Positions 1,583 to 47,090 of a stretch of 47,200 nucleotides of DNA are shown here, piece by piece. The position numbers and the translations under genes were made by a program. Location: contig JAUNHA010000016.1 of NCBI GenBank assembly GCA_030524135.1, positions 1 through 47,200 on the forward strand, given 5' to 3'. Numbering within the stretch: position 1 is the first letter of the stretch; every line of letters starts with the position of its first letter. The DNA comes from Eubacteriales bacterium (GTDB lineage Bacteria; Bacillota; Clostridia; Lachnospirales; Lachnospiraceae). The notes below the pieces were generated by a model. That model was not told the origin of the DNA, ran no database searches, and saw nothing but the letters and a program-made list of their open reading frames with translations.

Positions 1583-1627
1583 AATCTTTCACTCCTTTGA
1601 GCTCATATTCGAGTATCTTCCAACTTG

Positions 1628-2680: not shown

Positions 2681-2725
2681 GTGCTCTTTACTTATGAAAC
2701 GATAATATCTTACTCTTGTGATCCT

Positions 2726-2755
2726 ATTTTACTTATATCCTTATACTAATCTCAA
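2726..2755 (-). promoter_or_regulatory. Candidate internal sigma-A promoter
   Basis: On the minus strand TTGAGA and TAAAAT are separated by 18 nt, about 45 nt before the GT2 gene ending at 1628. The -35 lies inside the right arm of the adjacent hairpin. Both boxes deviate from consensus, so this is only a plausible internal promoter. Confidence 0.35.
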
Positions 2756-2790
2756 CCCGCCACTTTGCGTGGCAGGTTGAGATTTTTTTA
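2748..2790 (+). terminator. Intergenic hairpin with T-tract on the plus strand
   Basis: Two 16-nt arms (2748-2763 and 2769-2784) surround a 5-nt loop. On the plus strand the stem has one C-A mismatch and is followed by a T-run, the form of an intrinsic terminator. On the minus strand the same stem is fully paired with one G-U wobble but lacks a U-tract. Because both flanking genes are on the minus strand, the terminator orientation would only stop antisense transcription. In the sense direction it may act as an mRNA stabilising or processing structure. Confidence 0.6.
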
Positions 2791-2800
2791 TATCATTTAA

Positions 2801-5851: not shown

Positions 5852-5951
5852 AAGGTACTCCTAATTTATGTTTCGAATATTTGGCTGTTGTAGATTTCAA
5901 ATTCATAGAGAAAAACAGCCTAATAATTAGTGTTTATATATCATTCAACCT

Positions 5952-7016: not shown

Positions 7017-7054
7017 GAACTCACCTCCTCATATCACCACGACATCAATTTGTA

Positions 7055-7792: not shown

Positions 7793-7809
7793 CATATCTC
7801 CTATATCAG

Positions 7810-8598: not shown

Positions 8599-8621
8599 CG
8601 TGATTATTCCTGTTTTCCGTA

Positions 8622-10469
8622 TTATTTAATCCCCAGATACTTTATCCATGTTCCATAACCGGTAATCTGATTCCTGTGCTTACGATATGCCCTTGCCGCT
8701 TTGGGATAGCGGAATACGATCAGCATCAGGGCTTTCCAGTATAGACCTGCCGCTTTCAGCAGTTCCTGATAATCTTTTTTTGCAAGAACAGCCTTTCTGC
8801 TGAACGGTTCAAACAGTATGATCTGTTTTTCCCTGTAAGCCTCAAACGGGGAATCCAATGCGGAAATCGTCCGTATCTCTCCGTTCTTACGCCGCTTTGC
8901 AGGAAGGCTCCAGCCGTTAAATGTCAGCTTCTTTTTTTTGCCGCCTCTGCGTTTTTCCGGGTCGTGGTTATGCAGGATCTGCTCCACCCCAAATGCATCC
9001 GCATATTGTTCCATTCTGCGGACAGCCATATGGTATTCCTGTTCTGTCAGCTTTTCTTTTAAAGCTTCATAAGGTTCCAGCTTGATCTGTGCGCGCAGAG
9101 CATTATTAAGCTGTTCCGGATTCTGCCTGATGAGCCATTTGGGTCCCCTGCAGAAATCCCGGAAGCCCTGATAGGCCAGTTCCGTTTCTGCGTAGCGGTA
9201 GGAGATCAACGCACTTGTCATCGCCTTCCACACATACTTAAGCACCGCAAGCGTGGATTTCTCCGGATAGAAAAATGCCATCGTCATCAGGGCATTGCGC
9301 ACGTCATAATACCGGTTGACCCCCGAAAACGTCAGTTCAAATCCCCTGTGCCATGCGCCGATTCCGTTCAGGAACACGATTCCCTTATCCTGATTGCGCA
9401 TGCCAAACTCGATATCATCATGGTGGATAAAGAGCGGAAGCGGAAGATTGTCTTTTCTGACCGTATTGAGGGAATAACAGCAGCACCACCAGCCGCTGTA
9501 GGTACCCTCTGGCATGACCGGAGCGGTCATATAGTCAGATACGCAGTTCTCATACTCCCGCATATCCTTAAGCTCATAGCTGTTTTGTACCGAGAAGTTT
9601 TCAAAGCGCTCGCCGCAGGCTTGCTGCAGATACGGATAGTCCTCCCGCATCAGGTTTCCGCCGACCGTGATATCCCTATACTCCTGCTTCAGCGTCGTCA
9701 AAAGTCCGTATAGCCGTACAAACAGATCCGGCGCAAATACGGCGTCGTCGTCCATGAGCAGCACATGCGTGAGCTTCAGTTCTTCCTTCTTCTGCAGTAC
9801 CTCGATCATGCCCCTGGTAAAGCCGCCAGCGCCGCCCGCATTTTTATTCGGGCAGACTGTGATCCTGTTTTCACCCGCAAGCAGCTTCTGTATTCCTTCA
9901 TGCGAGGAAAGCGTCTGTCCATTGTCGATGAGCCACACGCGGAGATGGTCTCTTACCTCCAGCGCCTCATTGCTGAATATATGGCTGCAGATGCTCTGCA
10001 AGTTGCGGAGCACATAATCTTCTCTCCGGTAGGTGCAGATATCCGCTGCGATATTGATCTCATTGTATGCTGAAGCCTCGCCCTCATACCAGCCGTCGAT
10101 CTGCTCCCATTCCGTTTCTGCATTCGTTCCTGCAGCGAGTTTTACTTCCGGTTCTTTTTCAAGACTGAACCAGAACACGCCGCGCTCCGTCTCCTGATAC
10201 GGAAGTTCAAGGCGGTACGCGCATTTCTCTGCCGGGGAAAGCGTCTCAGAGGCGATCTCTTCCCTGTCATGCATCAGATGGATCTTCGAAAATCCCTTTA
10301 GCTCCATGCAGAGAAACAGCCGCTCCAGTGCGGTATACTTCTTTCTCTTTTCAATGTAAAAGAGATTGAAAAATCCGTCTGCCTGCAGCAGCTTCCCATC
10401 TCTGTGAAAATATAATTCTTCCACCTCACAGATCTGCTTATCCGGTTTTAAAATCGTTTGTAGGTGCAT
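8622..10469 (-). CDS. GlfT2-like galactofuranosyltransferase
   Basis: A 615-residue glycosyltransferase with the architecture of mycobacterial GlfT2. It has an N-terminal beta-rich domain (about 1-130), a GT-A domain with LLMDDDAVF (DDD at 240-242), an acidic HHDDIEFG site (349-356), a catalytic-type histidine in WHRGFE (His374), and a long C-terminal region. Spacing between the acidic site and the histidine is close to that in GlfT2. The family transfers galactofuranose from UDP-Galf. No UDP-galactopyranose mutase gene is in the window, so the donor would have to be made elsewhere, or the enzyme uses another sugar. An AAGGA site lies 7 nt before the ATG. Confidence 0.85.
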   Translation of the reverse strand: MHLQTILKPDKQICEVEELYFHRDGKLLQADGFFNLFYIEKRKKYTALERLFLCMELKGFSKIHLMHDREEIASETLSPAEKCAYRLELPYQETERGVFWFSLEKEPEVKLAAGTNAETEWEQIDGWYEGEASAYNEINIAADICTYRREDYVLRNLQSICSHIFSNEALEVRDHLRVWLIDNGQTLSSHEGIQKLLAGENRITVCPNKNAGGAGGFTRGMIEVLQKKEELKLTHVLLMDDDAVFAPDLFVRLYGLLTTLKQEYRDITVGGNLMREDYPYLQQACGERFENFSVQNSYELKDMREYENCVSDYMTAPVMPEGTYSGWWCCCYSLNTVRKDNLPLPLFIHHDDIEFGMRNQDKGIVFLNGIGAWHRGFELTFSGVNRYYDVRNALMTMAFFYPEKSTLAVLKYVWKAMTSALISYRYAETELAYQGFRDFCRGPKWLIRQNPEQLNNALRAQIKLEPYEALKEKLTEQEYHMAVRRMEQYADAFGVEQILHNHDPEKRRGGKKKKLTFNGWSLPAKRRKNGEIRTISALDSPFEAYREKQIILFEPFSRKAVLAKKDYQELLKAAGLYWKALMLIVFRYPKAARAYRKHRNQITGYGTWIKYLGIK

Positions 10470-10479
10470 TGATATTTCC

Positions 10480-11505
10480 TTATCGCTTTGTTTGCCTGAG
10501 CATCCATGCTGCCGGTCTGTACAGCAAATAGTTGCTCATTCTCAGCAGTTTTACCGCCTTGTTTCTGTTCGCCGCGTAAATATCCGGGAAATCCTTCTTC
10601 AGTTCCTGATCAAAGGTACGCAGCGCTTCCTTATATCTCCTGTCCGGCGGGAAGCTCAGAATGACCTTGATCTTCCCGGCCGCCGCACGTGCCGCAATTC
10701 CATTGATGTAGGCAAGCTTTTCCGGCGTACACGGGATGTCTCCCGTCCTGCAGCGTTCTGTAAAACCGCAGACAGATTTCATCACCCTGTCATAGTGTGC
10801 AGCATTTTTCTGCATACGCTCGGGACTTACGCTCTGTCCGCTCCGTCCGATCCGGTACTGATAGACAAAGTCCGGAATGAACAGCACGGTTTCTATATAT
10901 GGTATGGGATACAGGATATATTCCGTATCCACGTAATAACAGTTTTCGTCCACCCGGATCTCATGCGACCGAAGCACATCCGTGCGCCAGGTAAGCCCGT
11001 GCATCTTGAGATAACACTTCGCAGCGATCTCATTGAACCGGTAGAGCTTTCCGTATTCCACGCCCGGAAACGGTTCTTTGATCTCCGCCTTCCGCGGGAA
11101 TTCGTCCGGCGTCTTTCCATTTTCCTCAAATGCCCAGTAAAACCCGCTTACGACCGCATCCGCGTTCGTCTCTTCCAGTGTCTTAAGAAGTTTCAGAAAT
11201 GCATTTGCATCCACCCAGTCGTCCGCATCCACGATCTTAAAGTATCGTCCGGATGCCTCTCTGATCCCAGTGTTGATGCCGGATCCATGCCCGCCATTTT
11301 CCTTTGTGATGACGCGCACCGTATCCGGATAGCGCGCCTGCCAGCTTTCCGCGAGCGTCTTTGTTCCATCCGTGGAACCGTCATTGATAACGAGCACCTC
11401 GAGACGGCTGAGCGCCGCCTCCCGGCAGAGTGAGGCGAGGCAGGTGTCGAGGTATTTTTCCGCATTGTAGGCGGGAACCGTCACCGTAAGAAGCTTCTGT
11501 TCCAT
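10480..11505 (-). CDS. Family 2 glycosyltransferase
   Basis: A 341-residue GT2 enzyme. The N-terminus (LLTVTVPAYNAEKYL), VINDGSTDGT and IVDADDWVD motifs define the donor-binding GT-A half. YQYRIGRSGQS, found at the acceptor side in many polysaccharide GT2 enzymes, is near residue 220. The start codon lies 1 nt after the stop of the upstream sugar-phosphate transferase gene, with GGGAG inside the end of that gene, so the two are translationally linked. It probably adds an early sugar to the lipid-linked intermediate. Confidence 0.9.
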   Translation of the reverse strand: MEQKLLTVTVPAYNAEKYLDTCLASLCREAALSRLEVLVINDGSTDGTKTLAESWQARYPDTVRVITKENGGHGSGINTGIREASGRYFKIVDADDWVDANAFLKLLKTLEETNADAVVSGFYWAFEENGKTPDEFPRKAEIKEPFPGVEYGKLYRFNEIAAKCYLKMHGLTWRTDVLRSHEIRVDENCYYVDTEYILYPIPYIETVLFIPDFVYQYRIGRSGQSVSPERMQKNAAHYDRVMKSVCGFTERCRTGDIPCTPEKLAYINGIAARAAAGKIKVILSFPPDRRYKEALRTFDQELKKDFPDIYAANRNKAVKLLRMSNYLLYRPAAWMLRQTKR

Positions 11506-11506
11506 C

Positions 11507-12877
11507 TTATGCTTCTCCCTCGCTGTCCTTCACTTCCTCAGCCTCCGGCTTTACTCCCTCCGTACTCTCCTTCAGAAGGAGGATCTTCGGCGTAAGCAGA
11601 ATGAGCTTCAGATCAAGGAAAAACGAATAGTTTCTGATATAGGTCAGATCAAGCTTCAGCTTGTCATAGGGCGTGGTATTGTATTTTCCGTAAAACTGCG
11701 CGTAGCCGGTAAGGCCCGCCTTTACCTTGAGGCGGTAGGAGAATTCCGGCATTTCCTTCTCAATTTCTTCTGCGATCTCCGGACGTTCCGGACGCGGACC
11801 GACGATGCTCATCTCACCTTTCAGGATATTAAAGAGCTGAGGCAATTCATCCATCCGGCATGCCCTCAGGAATTTCCCGACAGGCGTGATGCGCGGATCA
11901 TGCTCCGATGCAAGCCGGGCGCCGCAGTTCTTTTCCGCATCCGGGATCATGGTGCGGAACTTGTAGATATCAAATTCTTTCCGGTCCTTCGTGAGGCGCC
12001 GCTGCTTATAAAATACCGGACCGCCGTCTGTTAACTTGATCAGCACTGCAATGATCAGGAAAAACGGAGAGGTCACGATCAGCGCGATCGCAGAGAGAAT
12101 AATATCTGCAAAGCGCTTCAGCGCTTCCTGCTCGAGGCTCAGCCCCTCATTTCTCGACAGATACAGCGGCGAATCGAAAATATTAAGCTCCACCGCCGAA
12201 CGGATAATGATATCGCTGATCTTCGGCACGATATAGGTTCTGATATTCATGCGGTAGCAGACCTTTACGATCTCATTGCGCTGGTCCGCAGGCACATCTC
12301 CCAATATAACGGCATCATACTTAAGCGCCTCCTGCAGGATGCGCTGCACGCCGTTTGAGATATTCATCGCCCCCTCAAGGATGTACTTGTCATCCCGGGA
12401 ATTGATCTTATCCATCAGATGAAACGCAGGGCGTTCCCCGTACACGAGCATCATGCGCCTTGGCGGGAACAATGTCTCATATACCTTCTGGAACGCAAGG
12501 CACCAGAGCACGATCACCACCGCGTCGGCAAGCTCCATGCCGAGTACATAGCCAATGTTATGAAATTTCTTATCCAGCAATGCGATCTGAAGATAGGTAA
12601 TAACATTGACAAAGGTTACCGAAAGCATCTGCGAATACATCAGGTTGCCTCTCCGGAGGAAGCCCACTCGCAGTCCGCCGTACATCTGGTTAAAGAAAAG
12701 GAGCAGGATGCCGTAAAGCGCGACCATCAGCCAGTTTCCCCTTCTCCAGAACGGGAATTCAATGATGCGGTTATAGTACCGGTTCCAGATGAACCAGTAC
12801 ACCATACATTCGAGCGCAATGATAGCAATTGCCGCAAGAAGCTTGACTATTCTTTTATTCGTTTCTTGTTGTTTCAA
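11507..12877 (-). CDS. Undecaprenyl-phosphate sugar-1-phosphate transferase (WbaP/CpsE-like)
   Basis: A 456-residue polyprenyl glycosylphosphotransferase that starts polymer synthesis by moving a sugar-1-phosphate onto undecaprenyl phosphate. Four hydrophobic helices fill residues about 12-130, a CoA-binding-like domain follows, a further helix lies near 255-280, and the C-terminal catalytic domain has YKFRTM, DELPQLFN and MSIVGPRP. It ends with an acidic tail. The likely start is TTG (12875-12877) with AAGGA about 12 nt upstream, and no ATG fits better. The initiating sugar (glucose, galactose or an N-acetylated sugar) cannot be decided from sequence. Confidence 0.92.
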   Translation of the reverse strand: MKQQETNKRIVKLLAAIAIIALECMVYWFIWNRYYNRIIEFPFWRRGNWLMVALYGILLLFFNQMYGGLRVGFLRRGNLMYSQMLSVTFVNVITYLQIALLDKKFHNIGYVLGMELADAVVIVLWCLAFQKVYETLFPPRRMMLVYGERPAFHLMDKINSRDDKYILEGAMNISNGVQRILQEALKYDAVILGDVPADQRNEIVKVCYRMNIRTYIVPKISDIIIRSAVELNIFDSPLYLSRNEGLSLEQEALKRFADIILSAIALIVTSPFFLIIAVLIKLTDGGPVFYKQRRLTKDRKEFDIYKFRTMIPDAEKNCGARLASEHDPRITPVGKFLRACRMDELPQLFNILKGEMSIVGPRPERPEIAEEIEKEMPEFSYRLKVKAGLTGYAQFYGKYNTTPYDKLKLDLTYIRNYSFFLDLKLILLTPKILLLKESTEGVKPEAEEVKDSEGEA

Positions 12878-12881
12878 AGTT

Positions 12882-13712
12882 TTATTGTTTCCTTCTCAGA
12901 TTTCTCCGGTAAAACCGCTCTCTAAAGCCGTTTGGCATCAGGCCAATACCAATACGAATCAGACAGTTTGTCAGAAATTCCGGATAACTGATAAATCCGC
13001 TTTTCAAAAAGCTTTGCTGCAGCGCAATAGCACTTCTGATATATGCAATCCCTCCGCGTCTTGCGATCATACCATTTCCGATGCGGGCGTATACCAACAC
13101 TTGCGGAAGGTTCTCTGCCTCAGCGCCATTTTGGAGCATACGCACCCATAAATCATAATCCTCCGCTCCTTTGACATCATGATAGTTGCCTGCAGCAAGC
13201 ACAGCACTGCGACGCATCATGACAGCCATATGGTTCATCGGATTTCTGCGTTTTGCATACCGCAGGATTTCCGTCTGTGTTTCAGGCAAACAGCGTAAGG
13301 CTTCCGTCTTTTGGGGATCCTCTCGAAATTCCGCAATTGTTCCACTGCAAAGTGAAAGTTTTGTACTATTACGAAATGCTTCAAGCTGCAATTCACAGCG
13401 TTCCGGAAGCGCAATATCATCACTATCCATTCTGGCAATTAGTTCACAAGAACACTCCTGCACACCTGCAGCGAGTGCCTTTCCAATGCCCTGATTTTCC
13501 GGCAGTCTCACGAGATGTAAAAGCTCTGGAATACAGACTTGAAAGGTTTCTAATTCTTTTTCAAGCTCTTCCGTCAACGGACCGTCACATACCAGAACAA
13601 TTTCCGCAGGAGCTACACTTTGCTTCAGCATGCTTTCAAGTGCCACCCGAAAACATGCCGCATTTTCGCCCTTATAGACTGGCATCAGTACGGAATACTT
13701 CAGATCAGTCAT
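12882..13712 (-). CDS. Family 2 glycosyltransferase
   Basis: A 276-residue GT2 enzyme with YSVLMPVYKGE, VCDGPLTEE in place of the usual DDGSTD, and RMDSDD as the metal-binding motif. MNHMAVMMR and EDYDLWVRM are typical of bacterial capsular GT2 enzymes. A longer frame begins at 13757, but the ATG at 13712 has GGGAG 8 nt upstream and overlaps the stop of the preceding gene by 8 bp, so coupled translation from 13712 is favoured. Base composition is slightly more AT-rich than its neighbours. Confidence 0.88.
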   Translation of the reverse strand: MTDLKYSVLMPVYKGENAACFRVALESMLKQSVAPAEIVLVCDGPLTEELEKELETFQVCIPELLHLVRLPENQGIGKALAAGVQECSCELIARMDSDDIALPERCELQLEAFRNSTKLSLCSGTIAEFREDPQKTEALRCLPETQTEILRYAKRRNPMNHMAVMMRRSAVLAAGNYHDVKGAEDYDLWVRMLQNGAEAENLPQVLVYARIGNGMIARRGGIAYIRSAIALQQSFLKSGFISYPEFLTNCLIRIGIGLMPNGFRERFYRRNLRRKQ

Positions 13713-15588
13713 TTCCATCTCTCCCTGCAGCAGCCTGTGACAGGGAAAATACCACAATCACAAGTCCAACGATAATCGGTACGGAAATATTGATAAAAGA
13801 CTGTCCTGTATATACAAGCACCGCAAATGCACAGGCTGCCATTGCAGCCCGGTCCTGCATTCCTGACGTTTTTTTATATGTTGAATACAGAGCGTCTCCT
13901 GACTTACCATTTTTCCCTGTTTTTACACAAAGACCAAACGCCTGCGCACAGCCGCTGATGATCCACCCGAAATACCCGACAAATCCCAGCACACCCGTCG
14001 TAAACAGATACTGCAGGAACTCATTGTGCGGAGAATCATAGATCTCTCCATACAGATCCATCATTTCCTGATAGTCATATACTCTGGTCACGATGCCGTA
14101 GGTCTCAGGGCCTGAGCCGATGAGCTTTTTCCAGAGCGGGAACTCCGAAAAGTGTCTGGCCAGGATCGACCAGTTGTGCCCGCGGTGCGTGCCCCAGTCG
14201 TTGTTGAAATAAAATACATTGGCATAGGGCTCATACCAGGACGGGTGCCCGCCGTGGTTCGCATCCCAGAACAGCCATACGATCACACAAACTCCGAGGA
14301 TGCCGAGGATCAGCCAGATCACGCGTGCAAAGCCCGGCATGCGGCTGGTAAATATTCCGCCAAAACGCTTGCCCGGAGCTGCTTTTGCAGATGCAGCTCT
14401 GATGCAGAGCGCCGCCAGCACGATCACGATCAGCACGAGGATACCGGCAAATGCCTTTTCCACCCAGCTCTGCTCGCTCAGCCCAAGCAGGATACCGCTC
14501 CAGAAGCCATTGTAGGAAAGCGGGTTTGAAAGTGTCAGGTGCCTCGTGATCAGAAGCGCCAGAAGGAACTCCGCCGCGATCAGCAGATACCGTACAAATC
14601 CGCCCCAGGTCTTCCATGCGTAAAACGGCAGGAAGGAAAGCAGCACTGCCACGCCGATCACCGCATTGTCCGACTGTCCCGTGATGATGGCGGTGAAAAA
14701 CACTGCCGTGCTCACAAAATAGAAGAGCATCCTGATCACGGAGAGTGCCGGAGCAAGCTTTTCGATGCCTGGCAGGGTGTTTCCGCCTCGTTCGCCCGAG
14801 CATCCGGAGATGCCCGGTGCCGAAGCCCCGTTACCGGAAGTCCCACTCGCAAAAAGCACCGCACTGAGCGCCAGATAGACGCCGATCACCGCGGTGTAGG
14901 TATTGATATTTCCAATTGAAGAGGTAAACATTGCTTTCTGCTCGCCTGTTACCTCATAGAGCCACCCATGCGGATCGAGCTCCAGATAGTCCTGAATGCC
15001 CCACACTGCAAGGTACAGTCCCACGATCAGTGCCACATCCAGATACCAGCGCTTCATCCGGAAAAATCTTGTCACCATGAAATAGGCGACTGCATACCAG
15101 ATCCAGAGAAAAAATCCCTGGTAACGTCCCATATTGCCCCAGAACGCTTCATACTGCCACTCGGAAAAGATCGTAGAGATGAGCGCCGTGAGCATGAATA
15201 GAATAAGGAAGAGATCCGGCAGCCGGAACAGATTTTTGATTGCCTGCCTGCGGTCCTTATTTGCCCTGCTGAACTGTCCGAAAAACTCCCGCACTGCAAG
15301 GCCGCCATTTTCCTTGTATTCCACGAACAGCCCGATCAGTCCGATCGCCGCGCTCACGCAGAGCATGACCGCTGTCGTGATCCAGAAAAAATAATACCGG
15401 TCCACAAGAATGTTGAAATACATGTCAGTCGCAAACAGCGGGAAGACCACAAGAATGGCAAACACATAAACAGCGACGATGCTGCTCACAACATCGCCGC
15501 AGATCTTCATCGGAGTTGAGGGCATCACGCCCGCCGACGGTTTTCTGCTGTTTTTGCCTGTCTCAGTTTTGCCTGCTGCCTTTGCCAT
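13705..15588 (-). CDS. O-antigen ligase/polymerase-like membrane protein (WaaL/Wzy family)
   Basis: A 627-residue multi-spanning membrane protein, first gene of the polysaccharide operon. About a dozen hydrophobic segments run from residue 27 to 620. The Wzy_C signature, a long extracytoplasmic loop ending in DSPHNEFLQYLFTTG, lies around residues 500-530. A Gly/Ser-rich insert (about 250-280) interrupts one loop. Members either polymerise repeat units or join finished glycans to an acceptor. Because this operon has an ABC exporter and no flippase of the Wzx type in view, a ligase role outside the membrane is the more natural reading. The promoter at 15655-15683 gives a leader of about 60 nt; the ribosome binding site is weak. 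Confidence 0.85.
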   Translation of the reverse strand: MAKAAGKTETGKNSRKPSAGVMPSTPMKICGDVVSSIVAVYVFAILVVFPLFATDMYFNILVDRYYFFWITTAVMLCVSAAIGLIGLFVEYKENGGLAVREFFGQFSRANKDRRQAIKNLFRLPDLFLILFMLTALISTIFSEWQYEAFWGNMGRYQGFFLWIWYAVAYFMVTRFFRMKRWYLDVALIVGLYLAVWGIQDYLELDPHGWLYEVTGEQKAMFTSSIGNINTYTAVIGVYLALSAVLFASGTSGNGASAPGISGCSGERGGNTLPGIEKLAPALSVIRMLFYFVSTAVFFTAIITGQSDNAVIGVAVLLSFLPFYAWKTWGGFVRYLLIAAEFLLALLITRHLTLSNPLSYNGFWSGILLGLSEQSWVEKAFAGILVLIVIVLAALCIRAASAKAAPGKRFGGIFTSRMPGFARVIWLILGILGVCVIVWLFWDANHGGHPSWYEPYANVFYFNNDWGTHRGHNWSILARHFSEFPLWKKLIGSGPETYGIVTRVYDYQEMMDLYGEIYDSPHNEFLQYLFTTGVLGFVGYFGWIISGCAQAFGLCVKTGKNGKSGDALYSTYKKTSGMQDRAAMAACAFAVLVYTGQSFINISVPIIVGLVIVVFSLSQAAAGRDGND

Positions 15589-26596: not shown

Positions 26597-29500
26597 TTAT
26601 TTCTCCGTCTTTGCTTCCGGTCTCTTTTTCTTTACCTTGAAATCCGGTGCGACGATCTTCCATGCCGCGTCCATGCTGTAATGCTTCTTCATATAGCCTT
26701 CCGTCTCCCGGCTGATCGCAGAGAGCACCTTTGCATCCCCGTACAGCTTAAGCACCGCGTCCGCAAAGCCCTGCGCCGTCTCTTCCGGCTTCTCGTAAAT
26801 GTCCTCGTCCCGGTCATTGGTAACCGCAAGGACCTTCTCCGCATCCGGAATTCCCTCGGCGCCCACGGAGGTCGTTACGACCACTGCTCCGTTGTAGAGT
26901 GCTTCTACGACCTTGCCCTTTACGCCCGCGCCGTAGCGGAGCGGAACAACGGTGAGCCTTGTCTTATGATACAGCTCCGAAAGCGCCTCGTCGCTGACAA
27001 ATCCGAGCACATGGATGCCGCTTTCCTCCGGCTTTTCTCCGAGTGCCGCGATCTCATCCGTCACCTTCGATCCCGCGATGTAGAAATTCATCTCCGGATG
27101 CGCCGTGCGAAGCTTCGGGAAAATGTCCTTTGCAAACCACAGCACACCGTCCGCATTCGGCGGGTGCGCGAAGCCGCCCACAAAGAGCAGGCCCTCCCGC
27201 TTTTCATAATCGGCCTCTGCCGCTTCATTCTCCGGGAAGCTGTCCCAGAGATATGCGGTGATCGCCTTTACCGGGATCTCCGGATCGACCGCATGGATCT
27301 CCTCCACCTCAAGCTCCGACGGATAGTAGGAAACCTCCGCCTTCCGCATGACGGTAAATTCAATGTTCTTCCAGTAATCCGCTTCCCGCTTTGTGCGGAT
27401 ATCGCCTGTCAGCTCATACTCCCTCGTAAGGCGCATGAAGTGCAGATCATGCCCGTAATAGATGCATTTGATATCCGTATTGTCCCGGATAAATTCTATG
27501 TATTTGATCGCAATATGCGGCCGGTTCAGGTAGGCAATGTCGATAAATGCCTGGTTTTCTTTGATCCAGTCCCAGATTCCGCTCTGCATTTCCTGTCCGT
27601 ACAGGATCTCCACACCCATCTGCATGAGCTCTGTGGAGTAGGGCTCCTCATGAAGGAAATTGTCTCCGAGGAATTTTACGTTATAGCCCTTTGCAAGGAG
27701 CATCCGGATATACTGCCAGGTCGTCTTTGATCCGGCATCCTTATCCCTTGTCGGCACGTAGTGGTCTATGATCAGCACGCAGGGCTTGTCCTGCGAACGG
27801 TCTCTTGCCGCAAACGGGTTCGGATTTCCCGTGTTCTTCGACTGTCTCCGAAGCTCTGCCTTCCATTTGCCCTTAAACTTTTCCTGGTTTACGAGCTGGT
27901 ATTTCTTTAAGCCGCTTCCATTCACGTCCGTACCGTTTGAAATACCTTCAAAGTGCACGACCACGGACTTCGGCTGATACACAACTCTCTTTCCGTGCCG
28001 GCGTACCTCAAACGCGAGATCGCTGTCCTCGCAGTATGCCGGTGCATAGCGCTCGTCAAATCCGCCGATCTCCTCCCAGAGATCCGTCCGGATCATGATC
28101 GCCGCTCCCGAAATGTAATCAACTTCCTTTACATAATTATACTGCGGTTTTTCCGGATCATCCAGTCTTCCGTAATTCCAGCCGGAGCCGTCGTCCCAGA
28201 TGATGCCGCCCGCCTCCTGCAGGCGTCCGTCCGGATAGATGAGCTTTGAGCCCGCAAGTCCGATGCTCCGGTCCGCATCCATCATGGACACAAGCGAGGA
28301 CAGCCAGCCGTCCGTCACCCTGGTATCGTTGTTCAGGAAGAAAATATATTCACCGCGCGCCTTCTTCGCAGCCTGATTGCAGTTCTTCAGGAAGCCCTGA
28401 TTTTCCGCATTCCGGCTTACAACAAGACCCTGAATGTATTTTTCAACATTGCTCGTCGCGTCCATCGAAACATCATCCGCAAGGATGATCTCATACGGCG
28501 TCTCATCGCTGTCCGTATGCTCAATGATCGAACGCACGCAGGCATAGGTATAGGCGATCTGGTTATATACAGGAAGCACGATCGATACTTTCGGGCTCTC
28601 GCATGAAGGTACGGTCAGTCTGCCGTATTCCATATAGTCAGCGCTTACGTTAAACTCTCCCGAGATCCGGTTTCTGCCGTCTTCCGACAGATACAGAGAG
28701 AGCATTTTCACCGGATGCCGGAGCGTGTTTTTCGCATAGGTGATCAGGCGGTGCTTTCTTGAGCCTTCCGGAAATGCACTGAGGAATGCCTTATGGAGCG
28801 AGCGCGACAGGCGCGATCCCATGCCCTCATGCTTTCTCAAATAGGCAAGCTCCTCCAGCATCGCCGCGATATCCCGCTCATGGATCCGGTTCGCTTCCTC
28901 GATGTTGAGGACATGATTCTGCGTTAATCTCAGAACCTCAAGGTTTTTGCTGATCGTCTCCTTATGCTCCCGCACTTCATCCTGCAGGCGGAGATTCCAG
29001 TCTGTGAACTCTGCCAGCTTCCGTTCCGTCTCATGCATATCAGAAAGCGTTTTCTGCTCCCTGCGGTAGCGCCCGATAAATGCCTGCTGCCCGTCTCCGT
29101 GGACAAACTGCTGGAACGATTCTTCCATTTTTTCAAATTCCGGAAGCTCCTCCGCGCGGATGCCGAAGGCTGCAAGGAAGGCCGGAAGGCCTGTATAGGC
29201 GTACAACGCCTCGCGGTAAGCCTCGTACCAGTAGCGGAGCATACGGTAGCGGAGATAATCCCGGTCGAGCGAGTTTTCAAATACCCATTCGTAATCCAGG
29301 TAATAATAGGCGTTTCCGCATACCATGATGTTCTCAAAGAGGCAGTCCATGTTGTGGCACTCGTGTGTTCCCATGCCGAGTACCAGCTCGAGCGCCTCCT
29401 TGATCGCGTGAACCGGCGCTTTTCCGTCCGCGATCAAAAGCGCCAGCTTTCTTGCGAGCGTGATACCGTCCAGATAGGTATAGGATACGCTGTAAAGTCC

Positions 29501-30649
29501 TGCCTTGTCCTTTGTAAAGCGCGGCGCCTGGGTCTGAAGCTTTGTTTCACGGTCCTCTGAGAGGATCTTATACTTCCACTCGAGGGAAAGGATGTGGTCG
29601 TTTGCCGCTTCGGAAAGCGCCCGTTTTACTACGCGGCGTTCGCCGTTTTCTTCTAATATTTCTGTTCTGGTCTGATAAGCCGGAATACGCGTGCGGTTAT
29701 AGCGGATATAGATCTGCGGCGGCAGGGCGGAAAGCGCTCCCGCAGCGGTTCCGTTCTCCGCATCCTCTTCGCCCTCTTCTCCCAGATATCCGGAAAGCAG
29801 CACGAAATAAGCCGGCGCAAACGGTGCGAACGCCTTGTTTTTGCACAGCGTTCCGTAGACCGCTTCCTCGTCGCAGGTCACATAGCGGTCCGCCTCATAC
29901 GCATCGGAAATCCCGCGGAAATCCCCGTCCTGCGGAAGATACGCATCTGAGAAAATATCCTTTGTAAGCCTTGCGTCAGGGAGCGGATAATACCACTTTG
30001 ACGCAGAGAACGGAAGTTTCTCCACATCCCGCTTAAAATTCTCATATCCGGCATATACCCTGCCCTCTGTATGTTTATCACCGGTCAGAAACCGGAGCGC
30101 GTCATAATTATCCACGGACAGAAGCAGGAGGCCTCCCTTTTTCAGGTGACCGGCTGCCGCGTGGAGAAATTCCGGAAGCGCCTCTTCAAACAGGGTCTCC
30201 GCTTTCTGTCCCGCATCCTTCTGCTGGATTTTCTGCAGAAGTCCCGGTACGGTCTCCAGCATCAGCTCTTCCGTGATCTCGGGAATGACCACCGCGTCAT
30301 ATCTGCGCGTGATCACATTTTTGATCAGTCCGAGATTCCCGCCGTTTTCCCGAAGGCGGTCCGGACAGCGGAATCTGATCACCTCCAGATTTTCGACCCT
30401 GCTGTCCTTTACATCCAGTTCTCCGACCTTTCCGGAAAGCAGCTCGCAGCAGGCGCCGTAATTGGCGCCGAGCATCAGCACGTTCATCCTGTCCGTAAAC
30501 GGATACCACTCAAACAGGTTTTCCCTGTTCGGGGAAAGCGCATAGAGATAATCCGCACGCTCCTCATTCAGGAGAATCGCCTGCTCCGCTTCGCTCCCGC
30601 TTCCCTGTGCTCTTAGTTTTTCAATAAGATCATAGCTGATCAAGTCCAT
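26597..30649 (-). CDS. Giant fused methyltransferase-like / kinase-like / coiled-coil / GT2 / GT4 protein
   Basis: A 1350-residue multidomain protein. Residues about 40-290 resemble a class I methyltransferase (motif I LMLGANYGA, 58-66). Residues about 310-520 look like a small-molecule kinase fold: Lys342 in RVVKRAL, a catalytic loop NMDCLFENIMV (Asp435, Asn440) and LDYEW (Asp452) in the DFG position. Residues about 530-605 form a coiled coil. A GT2 domain follows (VSIVLPVYN 688-696, LADDVSMDAT, FLNNDTR 771-777), then a GT4-type domain (about 955-1320, with GFAHPPNADGVLWF and VVPLRYGAGVKGKVVEAL). The first three parts match the layout of WbdD, the chain terminator of polymannose O-antigens. 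It starts 2 nt after the Wzt-like ATPase gene, so both are made together. Confidence 0.82.
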   Translation of the reverse strand: MDLISYDLIEKLRAQGSGSEAEQAILLNEERADYLYALSPNRENLFEWYPFTDRMNVLMLGANYGACCELLSGKVGELDVKDSRVENLEVIRFRCPDRLRENGGNLGLIKNVITRRYDAVVIPEITEELMLETVPGLLQKIQQKDAGQKAETLFEEALPEFLHAAAGHLKKGGLLLLSVDNYDALRFLTGDKHTEGRVYAGYENFKRDVEKLPFSASKWYYPLPDARLTKDIFSDAYLPQDGDFRGISDAYEADRYVTCDEEAVYGTLCKNKAFAPFAPAYFVLLSGYLGEEGEEDAENGTAAGALSALPPQIYIRYNRTRIPAYQTRTEILEENGERRVVKRALSEAANDHILSLEWKYKILSEDRETKLQTQAPRFTKDKAGLYSVSYTYLDGITLARKLALLIADGKAPVHAIKEALELVLGMGTHECHNMDCLFENIMVCGNAYYYLDYEWVFENSLDRDYLRYRMLRYWYEAYREALYAYTGLPAFLAAFGIRAEELPEFEKMEESFQQFVHGDGQQAFIGRYRREQKTLSDMHETERKLAEFTDWNLRLQDEVREHKETISKNLEVLRLTQNHVLNIEEANRIHERDIAAMLEELAYLRKHEGMGSRLSRSLHKAFLSAFPEGSRKHRLITYAKNTLRHPVKMLSLYLSEDGRNRISGEFNVSADYMEYGRLTVPSCESPKVSIVLPVYNQIAYTYACVRSIIEHTDSDETPYEIILADDVSMDATSNVEKYIQGLVVSRNAENQGFLKNCNQAAKKARGEYIFFLNNDTRVTDGWLSSLVSMMDADRSIGLAGSKLIYPDGRLQEAGGIIWDDGSGWNYGRLDDPEKPQYNYVKEVDYISGAAIMIRTDLWEEIGGFDERYAPAYCEDSDLAFEVRRHGKRVVYQPKSVVVHFEGISNGTDVNGSGLKKYQLVNQEKFKGKWKAELRRQSKNTGNPNPFAARDRSQDKPCVLIIDHYVPTRDKDAGSKTTWQYIRMLLAKGYNVKFLGDNFLHEEPYSTELMQMGVEILYGQEMQSGIWDWIKENQAFIDIAYLNRPHIAIKYIEFIRDNTDIKCIYYGHDLHFMRLTREYELTGDIRTKREADYWKNIEFTVMRKAEVSYYPSELEVEEIHAVDPEIPVKAITAYLWDSFPENEAAEADYEKREGLLFVGGFAHPPNADGVLWFAKDIFPKLRTAHPEMNFYIAGSKVTDEIAALGEKPEESGIHVLGFVSDEALSELYHKTRLTVVPLRYGAGVKGKVVEALYNGAVVVTTSVGAEGIPDAEKVLAVTNDRDEDIYEKPEETAQGFADAVLKLYGDAKVLSAISRETEGYMKKHYSMDAAWKIVAPDFKVKKKRPEAKTEK

Positions 30650-30651
30650 AT

Positions 30652-32019
30652 CTACTCCTGTCCTCCCGCTTCTGCCTTCGAAAGCCGACGGCAGTTCACT
30701 CCGGATTCCATATCGTATACGCCGACCGTGTTCTTATTGGAGATCACCGTCAGATTGAGAAGATCATACAGCCTGTGATATACCGTATGCTCTCCCTGTT
30801 CAAAGCCCGTACAGCTCATGCTGACCAGATATTCCCCGCCCTGCAGATTCATGTGCTGGCTGAACGTTACCTCATAGCCGTCCCCGTCTTCCACGCAGCC
30901 GGTGTCCACGCCCTCAAACATCGTATTCGTGCCGGTCAGGTCGTTTCCGCGCTTGTCACGGATCGTAAAGGTAAAGATCGGGGAATCTATATGCGCATGG
31001 AAGCGGATCCGCTCACGGATGGAAAAATTCTCGCCCTTCAGCACCAGATTGGTGAGCTTTCCTTTTTCATCCAGAATGCCGAAATCATAGATTTCCGCCT
31101 TCCCGTTTCCATATTCATTGACGTTGGGATTGACCGTCATCTGCGCGCGCATCGGTCCTGTCTGCGCTGCCTCTGCCGCTGCGCTCACCTTTCGCGCGGA
31201 GGTCTCCCGGTACAGCGCGCTGTTTTCCTCAGCCTTTTCCTTCTGCTTGTCGATGGTTTCGGAAAGGGCCTCCTGAAGCTGGTCATACTGTCCCGCGAGG
31301 ATCTTCTTGTAGAGATCCACCATCTCGCCCGGCACGCCCTCCGCGATCTTCTCTCCCTTATTCAGGAGTACGACCTTGTCGCAGTATTTCATGACGGATC
31401 CCATGTCATGCGTGACCATGAGGATCGTCGTACCGCGCGCCCGAAGCTCGTCCATGCGGTGATAGCACTTCGCCTGGAAAAACACGTCTCCCACAGAAAG
31501 CGCCTCATCGACGATCAGGATCTCCGGCTCCACATTGATCGCAAGCGCAAAGGCAAGGCGTACGAACATACCGGAGGAATAGGACTTTACTGGCTGATGG
31601 ACGAAATCCCCGATGTCCGCAAACTCCAGAATATCCGGCAGCTTTTCATCCATTTCCTTCTTGGAAAATCCCATCATCGTGCCGTTCATGTATATGTTTT
31701 CGATCCCGGTATAGTCCATGTTAAACCCGGCGCCAAGCTCGAGCAGCGCTGAGATCGTGCCGTTTACGCGCACCGATCCCGCAGTCTGCGTGAGCACGCC
31801 GGTGATGATCTTCAGCATCGTGGACTTTCCGGAGCCGTTCGTTCCGATAATGCCGACCGACTGTCCCTTTTCCACGGAAAAGGAGACGCCGGAAAGCGCG
31901 TAAAAGTCTCTGTGATAGCTTTTTTTACTGAGGCTCAGGCTTTCCCTGAGCCTGTCGATCGGTTTGTCATAAAGCCTGTATACCTTTGTGACATCCGTTA
32001 CTTCAATTACATTTTCCAT
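30652..32019 (-). CDS. Polysaccharide ABC exporter ATPase with C-terminal Wzt carbohydrate-binding domain
   Basis: A 455-residue Wzt-type ATPase. The nucleotide-binding domain has Walker A GTNGSGKST, signature SSGMFVRLAFA, Walker B ILIVDEALSVGD and switch VTHD. After a Lys/Glu/Ala-rich linker (about 245-295), residues about 300-450 form a Wzt_C-type beta-sandwich (FGILDEKGKLTNLV, YEVTFSQHMNLQGGEYLVS), which in Gram-negative systems recognises the capped end of the finished polymer. No matching permease gene is adjacent. The gene lies 18 nt after the aminotransferase stop and just before the giant capping/glycosyltransferase gene. It could share the permease at 7810-8598. Confidence 0.92.
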   Translation of the reverse strand: MENVIEVTDVTKVYRLYDKPIDRLRESLSLSKKSYHRDFYALSGVSFSVEKGQSVGIIGTNGSGKSTMLKIITGVLTQTAGSVRVNGTISALLELGAGFNMDYTGIENIYMNGTMMGFSKKEMDEKLPDILEFADIGDFVHQPVKSYSSGMFVRLAFALAINVEPEILIVDEALSVGDVFFQAKCYHRMDELRARGTTILMVTHDMGSVMKYCDKVVLLNKGEKIAEGVPGEMVDLYKKILAGQYDQLQEALSETIDKQKEKAEENSALYRETSARKVSAAAEAAQTGPMRAQMTVNPNVNEYGNGKAEIYDFGILDEKGKLTNLVLKGENFSIRERIRFHAHIDSPIFTFTIRDKRGNDLTGTNTMFEGVDTGCVEDGDGYEVTFSQHMNLQGGEYLVSMSCTGFEQGEHTVYHRLYDLLNLTVISNKNTVGVYDMESGVNCRRLSKAEAGGQE

Positions 32020-36954: not shown

Positions 36955-38769
36955 TTAGAGCACGCCGTTTAAATCCATCTCGTCCCAGACGTCAGACGGC
37001 TCGTACTGCAGTCTCCAGCCCGCAACGCCTGCGAGCTTATATTCCTTAATCGCACTGACCTTTTCCGCAATGGAGCGCTCATCCTCCATCCAGATCCGGC
37101 GCATTCCGGTTCCGGTATCCTTTTCACCATAATACTGACCGCATTCCACATTCCATTTCAGCTCAATGCCCTGCGCCTCGACATAGGCCTTCGCATCGAT
37201 AATGCCCATCGCATCCGAGGACAGGTTCGGCCCGGAGCTCTTCCAGACGCGTGTGAAGAACGGAATGCCGTTGATCAGATGCTCCGGCGCAACATGCTTC
37301 AGCGTTTCTTCGATTCCGTACCTTGTATAACCGATCGACGCTACGGAACCCGCCTCCTCGGAGCCGGTCGTATGCTCGTCGTAGCCCATGATCACGACAT
37401 AGTCCGCAAAGTCGCCCTGCTCGCCGAGATCATAATGGTCATTGAAATGATACGGCACATAATTATCAATGGAAAGCACCAGTCCGTTCTGCCTGCACGC
37501 CACGGATAGTTCTCTGTAAAACTGGACATAGCTCGGACCCGCATCAGACGGAAGGCCCTCAAAATCGAGATTGTATCCGTCATAACCGTACTGCACCGCA
37601 TCCGCGATCAGGCGGTCAATGAAGCTCTGACGGTTTTCTGCATGTGCAAAGTATTCCTTCGTGCTGAAGTCCTTAAGGCCGCCCGGCTGATTGAAGTTAT
37701 CGATCATCACCCATACCTGAAGGCCTTTTTCATGCGCGCTGTTTACATAGGTCTCGTCAATATAGTTTTCGTAATTTCCCTCCGCGTCCCTGATCTGGAT
37801 GCCGGTCGGGCAGATCACGTTCATAACGCCCTTCGTGTTTTCAACATAGCTTTCGAGCGTCGTATTGGCCGCCGACTTGCTGAATACCATGTGCCAGCCC
37901 ATCACGACCTTCTCCGGAAGCTCCTGATGCCTGAATACCGGGGCTTCAAAGGAGGAGGCAAGCGTCTTCTCGGACGGGTCGTTCAGGTATTTATTCTGCA
38001 CAAATCCGATCACGCCCTCAGAAGAAACCACCCTGGACCATTTGTCCATCGTTTCAAGCACCTTAAGCTCTGAACCCTCGGCAGCGTCTGCAAGGATCGG
38101 AGCCTTTATGCCGCCCTTCGTCCTGATCTGCGCCGCTTTCTTCGTCGTAACAAGCTGTATTGGAGACCAGTCATTATAGATAAATACGCGTTTTGCGCTG
38201 TCCGCCTCAGAGGTGAAGCTGTCCGTACGGATATCCGTATATTTTTCGATCGTAGACAGATTGATCAGAGGATTGCCGCTCTCATCCAGCAGATATACAG
38301 CCCCGCCGTCCGTTTCCCGAGATTCCTCCGTATACCGCACGACCTCATCCGGCAGCGTATAGATGAGCTGTCCGTCCCCGTTCTGCCAGTAAAAACGCTT
38401 GTTCAGATTCGTACTCACCCAGGTGATCGGAAGATATACCGTGCCGCCGCTTACCGTCGCGACGATCTCGCGGTCCAGCGCATCGTTCAGATAGACCCTC
38501 GCCTCGTTCCCGCTTACCTCGAACCATTCGTTCAGATCCTTCCGTTCCGTGGAAGGCGCGTATTTTTTCGCGATGACACCTCCGAACAGGCCGCCCGACA
38601 ATACCACGATCAAAAGGACCGCAAGCATCGGAAGCAGCGCTCCCCCGCGTCTTTTCCTGCGGCGGGAGGCAAGGCGCTCCTCTTCCTCCGGGGTCATTGC
38701 CTCGATCATATATTCCTTATTTCGCTGTGTTCTTCTGCTTTCCCGTCCGCGCGGTCTGCGTTCAGCCAT
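36955..38769 (-). CDS. Membrane-anchored GH18 cell-wall hydrolase with SH3 domain
   Basis: A 604-residue protein. A basic N-terminus is followed by one membrane helix (about 44-66), so the bulk lies outside. Next is a copper-amine-oxidase-N-like domain (about 85-145, with VYLPITWVSTNLNKRFYW), then an SH3b domain (about 205-262), then a GH18 catalytic domain (about 285-600). The active-site motif is YDGYNLDFEGL, where Asn replaces the first Asp of DxDxE, as in the YaaH/SleL spore cortex glucosaminidases. It probably cleaves peptidoglycan glycan strands. A good AAAGGAG precedes the ATG. Confidence 0.9.
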   Translation of the reverse strand: MAERRPRGRESRRTQRNKEYMIEAMTPEEEERLASRRRKRRGGALLPMLAVLLIVVLSGGLFGGVIAKKYAPSTERKDLNEWFEVSGNEARVYLNDALDREIVATVSGGTVYLPITWVSTNLNKRFYWQNGDGQLIYTLPDEVVRYTEESRETDGGAVYLLDESGNPLINLSTIEKYTDIRTDSFTSEADSAKRVFIYNDWSPIQLVTTKKAAQIRTKGGIKAPILADAAEGSELKVLETMDKWSRVVSSEGVIGFVQNKYLNDPSEKTLASSFEAPVFRHQELPEKVVMGWHMVFSKSAANTTLESYVENTKGVMNVICPTGIQIRDAEGNYENYIDETYVNSAHEKGLQVWVMIDNFNQPGGLKDFSTKEYFAHAENRQSFIDRLIADAVQYGYDGYNLDFEGLPSDAGPSYVQFYRELSVACRQNGLVLSIDNYVPYHFNDHYDLGEQGDFADYVVIMGYDEHTTGSEEAGSVASIGYTRYGIEETLKHVAPEHLINGIPFFTRVWKSSGPNLSSDAMGIIDAKAYVEAQGIELKWNVECGQYYGEKDTGTGMRRIWMEDERSIAEKVSAIKEYKLAGVAGWRLQYEPSDVWDEMDLNGVL

Positions 38770-45350: not shown

Positions 45351-47090
45351 ATGAAAGTAAATACGTCGAAATCCAAAAACGCTGAATCCTTTTACATCAA
45401 ACAGTCTTACATTGATGGCAACGGTAAATCCACTTCAAGAACCATACGAAAGCTTGGTACCCTGAAGGAACTTCTCATTGAGCACGGTCCCACCAGAGCC
45501 GATGTCATGGAATGGGCAAAGGAACAGGCACGTATCGAGACTGAAAAGTATGAGCTCGAAAAAGAAAACCACTGCATCCCCGTCGTCTTTCATCCGAACA
45601 GAAAGATACCACACGGGGAAAGAAGGCTCTTTCAGGGCGGATATCTGTTCTTACAGTCCCTCTACTATGAGTTGGGACTGAACCGGATCTGCCGCAAGAT
45701 CCGGGATAAGCATCGCTATTCCTATGACCTGAACGCGATCCTCTCCGATCTCATTTATACCAGAATCCTCGAGCCGGGCAGCAAACGGTCATCCTTTCAG
45801 ACCGCCAAAGAGTTTCTTGAAGCTCCGGACTATGAACTTCATGACATCTACAGGGCTCTCAGTGTCCTGTCCGAAGAATGCGACCTCATCCAGTCAGAGG
45901 TCTATAAGAACTCCAAAGCTGTCACGGAACGTAATGACAGTGTTCTCTACTACGACTGCACCAACTACTACTTTGAGATCGAACAGGAGGACGGGGACCT
46001 ACAGTTCGGAAAAAGCAAGGAGAACCGCCCCAATCCGATCATACAGATGGGGATGTTTGTGGACGGGGACGGGATCCCTCTTGCGTTCCGGCTCTTCCCG
46101 GGGAAGCAGAACGAACAGAAATCCCTGAAACCTCTTGAGAAAAAGGTGATCGAAGAATTCGGCTGCAAACGCTTTATCTATTGTTCCGATGCCGGACTTG
46201 CTTCCGAAGATAACCGTCTTTTCAACCATACGCAGAACCGCGCTTATATCGTGACACAGTCCATTAAAAAACTTCCCTTGGAATACAGGGAAAGGGCGCT
46301 TGATAAAAAAGGCTTCCGCAGGCTTTCCGACAACAGACTTGTTGATCTTGACCAGTTGACTGATGATGACTATGATGAGCTGTTCTACAAGGAAGAACCT
46401 TACAGCACAAAGAAAACGGAACAGCGTCTCCTCATCACCTATTCCCCAAAGTATGCCGCTTATCAGAAAGAGATCAGGGAAAAACAGGTGGAGCGGGCAA
46501 AGGCAATGCTTGCAGGCAACAACCACAAAAAAACAAGGAAAAACCCAAACGACCCGGCGAGGTTCATCGACAGGACTGCCGTTACCACGGATGGGGAGAT
46601 CGCTGATATCCTTTACTTTCTGAATGAGGAAAAGATCGCAGAGGAAGCAAGGTATGATGGTCTTTACGCTGTTTGCACCGACCTCTTTGACGATGCCGTT
46701 GGAGATATCCTGAAAGTAAGTGAGGGAAGATGGCAGATCGAAGCCTGCTTCCGGATCATGAAGACGGATTTTGAAGCGAGACCGGTGTATGTGCAGAGGA
46801 AAGACCGGATCAGGGCACATTTCCTCATCTGCTTCCTTGCTCTTCTTTTTTACCGGATGCTGGAGAAAAAACTGGGAGGACGTTATACCTGTGACGAGCT
46901 CCTTGATACACTCAGGAAGTTTGCCTTTGCGGATGTTCAGGGACAGGGTTTCATGCCGGTCTACACCTCCACAAAACTGACGGATGAACTGCACCAGATC
47001 TGCGGCTTTGAAACTGATTTTGAGTTCATCACAAAAAGTAAGATGAAGGAGATCCAAAAGCTTAGCAAACAGACTTCCCGTTTGAAATAA
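45351..47090 (+). CDS. IS1634-family transposase (IS4 superfamily)
   Basis: A 579-residue DDE transposase. The N-terminus (SFYIKQSYIDGNGKSTSRT split over a short region) is typical of the family. The first catalytic aspartate is in LYYDCTNYYFE, the second in IYCSDAGLAS, and the YREK-type region with the glutamate is GRWQIEACFRIMK, followed by RAHFLICFLALLFYR. Length matches an intact IS1634/ISL-type element and no frameshift is seen, so it may be active. GAGGTGA lies 7 nt before the ATG. It is divergent from gdpP. Confidence 0.93.
   Translation: MKVNTSKSKNAESFYIKQSYIDGNGKSTSRTIRKLGTLKELLIEHGPTRADVMEWAKEQARIETEKYELEKENHCIPVVFHPNRKIPHGERRLFQGGYLFLQSLYYELGLNRICRKIRDKHRYSYDLNAILSDLIYTRILEPGSKRSSFQTAKEFLEAPDYELHDIYRALSVLSEECDLIQSEVYKNSKAVTERNDSVLYYDCTNYYFEIEQEDGDLQFGKSKENRPNPIIQMGMFVDGDGIPLAFRLFPGKQNEQKSLKPLEKKVIEEFGCKRFIYCSDAGLASEDNRLFNHTQNRAYIVTQSIKKLPLEYRERALDKKGFRRLSDNRLVDLDQLTDDDYDELFYKEEPYSTKKTEQRLLITYSPKYAAYQKEIREKQVERAKAMLAGNNHKKTRKNPNDPARFIDRTAVTTDGEIADILYFLNEEKIAEEARYDGLYAVCTDLFDDAVGDILKVSEGRWQIEACFRIMKTDFEARPVYVQRKDRIRAHFLICFLALLFYRMLEKKLGGRYTCDELLDTLRKFAFADVQGQGFMPVYTSTKLTDELHQICGFETDFEFITKSKMKEIQKLSKQTSRLK

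Follow-up and report, generated by a model that had tools for sequence, protein, structure and literature searches.

A pair of adjoining genes from a Lachnospiraceae genome appears to encode a glycan polymerase joined to its own chain terminator, together with the exporter subunit that reads the chain end. The window, that is, the whole stretch of DNA analysed here, is 47,200 nucleotides long (Eubacteriales bacterium, GenBank assembly GCA_030524135.1, contig JAUNHA010000016.1), and both genes lie on its minus strand. One (26597..30649), defined by its open reading frame (ORF) and Pfam matches, encodes a fusion protein of 1350 amino acids (aa) with, in order, a putative pseudo-methyltransferase domain, a kinase-like domain, a coiled coil, and glycosyltransferase (GT) domains of the GT2 and GT4 types. 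The other (30652..32019), recognised by its ORF, Pfam matches and solved relatives, lies upstream with a gap of 2 nt and encodes Wzt, an ATP-binding cassette (ABC) ATPase of 455 aa with a C-terminal cap-reading domain. We hold with fair confidence that the fusion polymerises and terminates an ABC-exported surface glycan that probably contains rhamnose; in this reading the kinase caps the end, the methyltransferase is a remnant and the Wzt_C domain reads a phosphate. The GT2 and GT4 domains would extend the chain on a lipid carrier in the cytoplasm, and Wzt together with an unlinked Wzm would export the capped chain. Judged from sequence, the methyltransferase part of the cap enzyme looks dead, which makes a bare phosphate the most likely cap. 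On the more specific proposal of a kinase-only terminator with a bare-phosphate glycan end, a retuned cap pocket (Gly to Ser, Ala to Thr) and Wzt_C residues that form a readable code, our opinion is evenly divided.

The gene pair and its family

The pair is kept throughout the genus. The N-terminal half of the fusion was matched in all 24 other genomes of the same genus that were searched (in G022 as a fragment at a contig end), and the wzt gene stands immediately upstream in 23 of the 24, which is 23 of 23 assessable cases, as the contig of G004 stops within the fusion gene. A scan of the genome contigs returned a single locus (L033). Wzt scores 78.8 bits for its nucleotide-binding domain (NBD) and 145.7 bits for Wzt_C (residues 300-437, 30709..31122, minus strand; cut-off 30.4), and the solved relatives found by profile are 8dku and 2r5o. 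The recognised neighbours of the pair in the genus are housekeeping-type genes (aminotransferase, regulator, endonuclease III and YlmH), and a Wzm was not seen in the 24 genus stretches read around it.

Beyond the genus, a profile of the methyltransferase-kinase half matches 69 of the 295 genomes of the order, our own included, and the surroundings of the best match were read for all 68 others. A kinase match is present in 59 of these loci, of which 52 carry Wzt_C no more than two ORFs away, 52 a Wzm somewhere in the stretch and 26 an RmlC, some of the kinase-bearing loci without these neighbours reaching a contig edge. The remaining nine match on the methyltransferase but not on the kinase, and none of them has Wzt_C within two ORFs, one (L146) lying on a 3-kb contig. 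The usual gene order in the family is RmlC-Wzm-Wzt_C-methyltransferase-kinase-GTs, and the methyltransferase-kinase unit occurs free (about 700 aa), split, or fused with the GTs on one chain. In one sister genus (L130, L132 and L134) the order is RmlC-Wzm-Wzt_C-methyltransferase-(kinase-coiled coil-GT2-GT4), and L104 and L101 have the same fusion layout as the window. At the level of the phylum, 304 of 398 genomes match at E 1e-3; since most of the matches listed are short, 30-40-bit matches to methyltransferase motifs in frames of about 300 aa, only those above 90 bits were counted, and these occur in 15 of the 398 genomes (own included) among the matches listed, which are ordered by E. With a kinase match in 59 of the 68 loci, the terminator family recurs in Lachnospiraceae and related families, with one lineage of seemingly changed cap chemistry. 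An earlier note on this DNA, made from the letters alone, had given the same domain order and placed a Wzt_C-type ATPase 2 nt upstream, both of which are borne out by the ORFs, Pfam and profile matches; it had also asked how often homologues adjoin such an ATPase, and both the genus and the order counts above agree with its expectation. As a separate observation, L148 and L152 carry methyltransferase and kinase genes beside a Wzt without Wzt_C; between them lies a separate ORF of about 280 aa, so that a detached cap reader is possible there.

The methyltransferase domain

Residues 35-292 of the fusion (29774..30547, minus strand) are assigned to a class I methyltransferase fold with a broken S-adenosylmethionine (SAM) site (M59, N63 and Glu at the Y158 position) by profile matches, site states and a rate shift. 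Pfam gave no match on residues 1-560 of the window protein; Methyltransf_23 is matched by four of 23 genus members (best E 3.6e-7), and a profile of the N-terminal domain built from 23 homologues finds solved class I methyltransferases (best E 1e-4 and 9e-5). Eight SAM-site positions were scored, six of them named for the terminator ORF6 of Klebsiella O7 (Y28, Y66, G91, G93, E112 and Y158; PMC11231755) and two, the motif I acid and the third glycine, added here. All eight are canonical in 40 of the 41 intact-group loci with Wzt_C, the sole exception being L105, but in none of the 23 genus proteins, the five fused sisters or the two shrunken-lineage proteins that could be read. At the six named positions the window protein lacks the Y28 region and then has Tyr, Gly, Asn, Asp and Glu, and its glycine motif reads MLGANYG versus EVGSGCG in relatives. 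Across the genus, the second glycine, the Y158-type tyrosine and the Y28 region are each found in 0 of 23 proteins, and the motif I acid in five. These counts omit L055, truncated at a contig end (L054 was omitted from alignment A5), and those for sisters and others are of profile matches, members without a match being uncounted. Ten loci with a partial or generic methyltransferase (L146, L153, L155, L156, L160, L163 and L165-L168) were omitted from the site-by-site comparison, in which the 'other' group of 48 included L128 and L159, later classed as eroded; the clean count is 41. Six genomes that belong to one genus, with an ORF of 162-199 aa preceding the kinase, and L128 make up the shrunken lineages; the glycine motif is absent in the two sequences read from the former. 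In these six (L157, L158, L159, L161, L162 and L164) the short ORF takes the place of the methyltransferase, flanked by Wzt_C and a protein of 1176-1178 aa that bears the kinase.

The rate of change is altered as well. Taking the NBD distance of Wzt as a clock, we find a median methyltransferase/kinase distance ratio of 1.34 for the fused clade (26 loci, 307 pairs) versus 0.45 for the others (882 pairs, 43 loci, presumably including L128 and L159), which means that, over non-independent pairs, the methyltransferase diverges about threefold faster relative to the kinase in the fused clade; the kinase/NBD ratio is steady at 4.92 versus 4.96. Because the SAM site is broken and evolution relaxed, the domain is judged degenerate and non-methylating: the methyltransferase of the genus fusion is probably inactive and may be kept as a scaffold. 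The methylated cap that the earlier note had allowed for is thus unlikely, the site being broken in all 23 genus proteins compared.

Some features of the domain weigh against such a loss. All 23 genus proteins keep G61 and G65, and 22 keep the motif II acid, so SAM binding is possible; together with the whole-domain homology to the O7-type family and the retention of the domain in all 23 genus proteins covering it, these residues favour an ordinary O7-type terminator, whose methyltransferase works with an altered SAM site and whose cap is methylphosphate. We regard this as rather unlikely, given the lost second glycine, tyrosine and Y28 region, the motif I acid kept in so few proteins, the accelerated divergence and the change at a methyl-pocket position of Wzt_C (below). 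It is highly improbable, in our opinion, that the domain was repurposed, binding another ligand or adding a non-methyl group to the phosphate: conserved stretches such as YYPLPD and YD are kept in the genus and weak profile matches include aminopropyltransferases, but it is the least conserved of the three parts (mean column identity among 23 genus proteins 41%, with the kinase at 53% and the GT half at 63%), and in other lineages it is reduced to 162-199 aa or lacks the first part.

The cap-reading pocket of Wzt_C

The groups with a dead and an intact methyltransferase were fixed on the methyltransferase before Wzt_C was compared. At positions 350 and 402 of Wzt, Thr and Ser occur in all 34 loci of the dead group (22 from the genus, 5 from the sister clade and 7 from eroded lineages), and Ala and Gly in all 41 intact loci. 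None of the 284 NBD columns separates the two groups (34 versus 41 rows), nor does any of the 479 columns of NBD plus kinase (23 versus 41 rows). The 22 genus rows are those recovered above 350 aa, that of G022 being without a readable methyltransferase, and alignment A9 holds 34 of the 75 Wzt_C rows. The pocket residues T350 (30970-30972), S402 (30814-30816) and R416 (30772-30774), all on the minus strand, were located by residue comparison and profile alignment to the Wzt of Aquifex aeolicus and to 2r5o. In the former alignment, whose offset of one was fixed by the published His350, Met353, His355 and Trp362, S402 falls on Ala348, T350 on Gly298 (beside Ile299 and Leu300) and R416 on Trp362; the pocket for the methyl group of the cap is described there as Leu300, Thr346, Ala348 and Trp362 (PMC9445017). 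The Wzt of E. coli HS (annotated as O9 family) has Gly, Gly and Arg at 350, 402 and 416, and two plasmid proteins likewise; the O9a cap is described as methylphosphate (PMC3482155). The Wzt of E. coli IAI1 (annotated as O8 family) has Gly and Ala, with Asp at 416 in the automatic alignment and Trp by eye (nearby YEW motif), and the O8 terminator is described as a simple methyltransferase (PMC3482155). Thr350 and Ser402 would stand where methylphosphate readers carry Ala or Gly, and we propose that Wzt_C recognises a phosphate cap, Arg416 serving the phosphate and the other two residues occupying the space. The code itself, to which we give even chances as part of the kinase-only proposal, would pair Ala/Trp with a methyl cap (two sequences, one of which was read by eye), Gly/Arg with methylphosphate and Ser/Arg with phosphate. 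Such a two-residue exporter signature would allow the cap type to be predicted from sequence, and, if it is true, how Wzt_C distinguishes caps becomes directly testable.

Two points weigh against this interpretation. Residue 336 (31012-31014) also separates the groups, less uniformly and with no known role. A single clade with dead methyltransferases is not rejected (P value of the approximately unbiased test, p-AU, 0.453; 0.463 with Wzm), and the methyltransferase loss and the Wzt_C change may be one coupled evolutionary event. The trees, which use 11 genus rows, need three methyltransferase losses, and with Wzm the well-supported branches force two (with a long-branch warning on the Wzm tree); independence of the losses was tested by these trees and, at the p-AU values given, was not shown. 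As to residue 336 itself, it is Glu in the genus and the sister clade, Ser or Tyr in the eroded lineages, and Met, Ile or Phe in the intact loci.

Kinase-like domain, coiled coil and glycosyltransferases

The kinase-like domain (residues 308-535, 29045..29728, minus strand) is recognised by its invariant residues and a weak APH/protein-kinase similarity. Lys342, Asp435, Asn440, Asp452 and Glu454 are identical in all 81 kinase domains picked by profile (24 from the genus and 57 others; alignment A7 holds 55 of the 81); the first four of these residues had been pointed out in the earlier note. D435-N440-D452 align with a D-N-D motif of a homologue from Pseudomonas asturiensis, with 25 bits in that part. 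Because the catalytic-type residues are invariant and the O7 terminator, to which the protein is homologous, has a demonstrated kinase action, the domain is predicted to phosphorylate the non-reducing end of the chain.

Several results count against this assignment. The kinase of the window protein has no significant family match in Pfam or among solved structures: the structure search gave a phage neck protein at E 0.09 and then JAK1 near E 1, and a wider kinase profile gave JAK1 at E 0.34, none of them significant. Twenty single kinase domains run in Pfam gave one weak DUF4135 match (E 0.005) and one irrelevant match. The kinase evolves fast, at about five times the pace of the NBD. In the P. 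asturiensis homologue His stands in place of the Lys, and in a Citrobacter homologue Glu in place of the last Asp; the motif is therefore less strict outside Clostridia. An AlphaFold2 model of residues 1-560 from a two-sequence input was unusable (mean predicted local distance difference test score 40.4). Among 55 members, Pfam matched APH in one (E 3e-4), choline kinase in one (E 0.008) and DUF4135 in five. Of the kinase-profile search that the earlier note had called for, the motif residues hold and a family match for the window protein does not, one of the 55 members reaching APH; the name kinase draws on the motif residues and on the link with the O7 enzyme rather than on a significant family match. 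The same lack of a match speaks for a pseudokinase, or for an enzyme that acts elsewhere (on protein or lipid) while Wzt_C reads another feature of the chain, which we consider improbable, since the five catalytic-type residues are invariant, 52 of 59 loci have Wzt_C as a neighbour, and the kinase domain of O7, a presumed homologue, is reported to phosphorylate the terminal rhamnose (PMC11231755).

The coiled-coil block, a candidate length ruler (residues 537-612, 28814..29041, minus strand), is recognised by its constant length and hydrophobic period. It has 76 aa in all 24 genus proteins, unlike the N-terminal domain, which is variable in length, and its best hydrophobic period is 3.42-3.48 in 23 of 23 genus proteins tested; in the window protein the same 3.5-residue periodicity was reached by 53 of 2000 shuffles. 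From the kinase to the block there are 20-odd residues, leaving no room for a domain like a carbohydrate-binding module (CBM), for which no search was made. The block would keep the capping kinase at a fixed distance and thereby set the chain length, a role suggested by the published O9 and O12 rulers, the O7 precedent and the invariant block length. Downstream, the GT2 domain occupies residues 684-945 (27815..28600, minus strand; PF00535 Glycos_transf_2 at 689-858, 84 bits) and the GT4 domain residues 955-1330 (26660..27787, minus strand; PF13692 Glyco_trans_1_4 at 1153-1305, 75 bits). The idea, put forward in the earlier note, of polymerase, terminator and ruler on a single chain with a cap-reading exporter is supported, as are its domain order, kinase residues and Wzt_C neighbour.

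The Wzm partner, rhamnose genes and other features of the window

A Wzm gene next to RmlC, with no adjacent NBD gene, was found in all 23 genus loci examined (in G000 at C83:23306-24178), the survey covering 23 of the 25 genomes, all except G013 and G015, which are of low completeness. This orphan Wzm groups with the operon Wzm of the fused sister genus, and the other Wzm of the window is distant (FastTree, no support values); we infer that the orphan pairs with the window Wzt. The window's own Wzm (7810-8598) was rejected as partner, as it has its own ATPase without Wzt_C and lies elsewhere in the tree. Another permease (G000:C32), at a contig end, stands apart in the Wzm tree. The genome carries rmlA (497 bits) and rmlD (324 bits) together on C18, rmlB not having been searched for. 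Since the orphan Wzm stands beside RmlC and rmlA and rmlD are in the genome, the ancestral operon seems to have been split, with the membrane half of the exporter now unlinked, and rhamnose is a likely, though unproven, component of the glycan. In L097:3362-11359, RmlC-Wzm is flanked by genes for a DUF2142 membrane protein, an acyltransferase, Ppx/GppA and a polyphosphate kinase.

The window also holds a second ABC-type glycan cluster (344-15588, minus strand) with a UDP-sugar dehydrogenase, several GT2 proteins, a Wzt without Wzt_C, a Wzm, a Methyltransf_24-like protein whose N-terminus is rich in Gln, Glu and Lys, a sugar-phosphate transferase of the Bac_transf type and a membrane protein that matches Wzy_C below threshold. 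In addition, there is an SH3 and GH18 protein (36955-38769, minus strand), a relative of which is labelled in 12 of 24 genus stretches, some of them ending short of it, and an ORF of 579 aa (45351-47090, plus strand) that resembles an IS1634-type transposase by eye.

Comparison with known systems

The capped ABC-exported glycans in the papers cited here are Gram-negative O antigens and Gram-positive S-layer glycans. From sequence comparison, the capping unit of the window is related to the Klebsiella O7 terminator ORF6, which is described as a methyltransferase, an unannotated AmiN-like kinase, a CBM, a coiled coil and two GT2 modules on a single chain, with a terminal methylphosphate as product end and with phosphorylation abolished by D441A (PMC11231755). 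The link runs through two plasmid proteins, the ORF6 sequence itself not having been compared. A tblastn search of plasmids with the Clostridia relative L102 gave three records, two of them strong, a protein of 649 aa from Citrobacter braakii and one of 1457 aa from P. asturiensis, each directly behind ABC permease and ATPase genes. The P. asturiensis protein has Y28, Y66, G91, G93, E112 and Y158 at the published ORF6 numbers, and is taken as an ORF6 relative for that reason; it has Asp at 443 versus D441. On the P. asturiensis protein, a methyltransferase plus kinase profile with the window among its members scores 216.8 bits, and on the Citrobacter protein 206.0 bits, mostly via the methyltransferase, the kinase profile alone giving 25.3 and 4.2 bits; alignment A8 holds 26 methyltransferase-kinase proteins of the 31 listed relatives plus the window.

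The joint profile scores 2.7 bits (E 0.01 among six sequences) on the WbdD of E. coli HS, and 'WbdD-like', the term of the earlier note, is not supported as a family name. The methyltransferase profile gives 15.1 bits and the kinase profile no match on the WbdD kinase, in agreement with a profile-profile comparison; membership of the WbdD family is thus rejected for the kinase, and the methyltransferase parts are weakly alike. The same note knew of no such fusion in Clostridia. None was found described there, but the fusion format itself is already published for Klebsiella O7 (PMC11231755), as is a Gram-positive methyltransferase-GT fusion, WsaE (PMC2943079). A search of the open-access literature (titles and starts of abstracts, with few subscription papers) found no Clostridia terminators of such kind and no kinase-only caps. 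As far as we have seen, the new elements are the O7-type family in Gram-positives, a live-looking kinase paired with a seemingly dead methyltransferase, the split in the exporter and the signature in Wzt_C.

Compared one by one, ORF6 of O7 shares with the window protein the order of methyltransferase, kinase, coiled coil and two GT modules in a single polypeptide of about 1400 aa, and its locus shares a Wzm/Wzt exporter and rml genes; by profile, the methyltransferase domain of the window is homologous to a protein that has the published ORF6 SAM-site residue numbers. ORF6 differs in an extra CBM and in GT2+GT2, whereas the window has GT2+GT4, a broken SAM site, an unlinked Wzm and a Gram-positive host. 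The WbdD proteins of E. coli O9a and K. pneumoniae O3 have the same methyltransferase-kinase-coiled coil order and terminator-ruler logic (PMC3482155), and wzt adjoins wbdD in E. coli HS as at the window locus; as described there, however, WbdD is separate from the polymerase WbdA, with a eukaryote-type kinase and an active methyltransferase, while the window protein is fused and its motif I degenerate. The Wzt of A. aeolicus has the Wzt_C fold in common and differs in its described 3-O-methyl-mannose cap, a methyl ether without phosphate (PMC9445017). WsaE of the Geobacillus stearothermophilus S-layer glycan, likened here by description only, is likewise Gram-positive and joins a methyltransferase cap domain to two rhamnosyltransferases, and the wzm, wzt and wsaE genes of its cluster overlap; the account cited describes a 2-O-methyl cap and no kinase (PMC2943079), whereas the window protein has a kinase-like domain.

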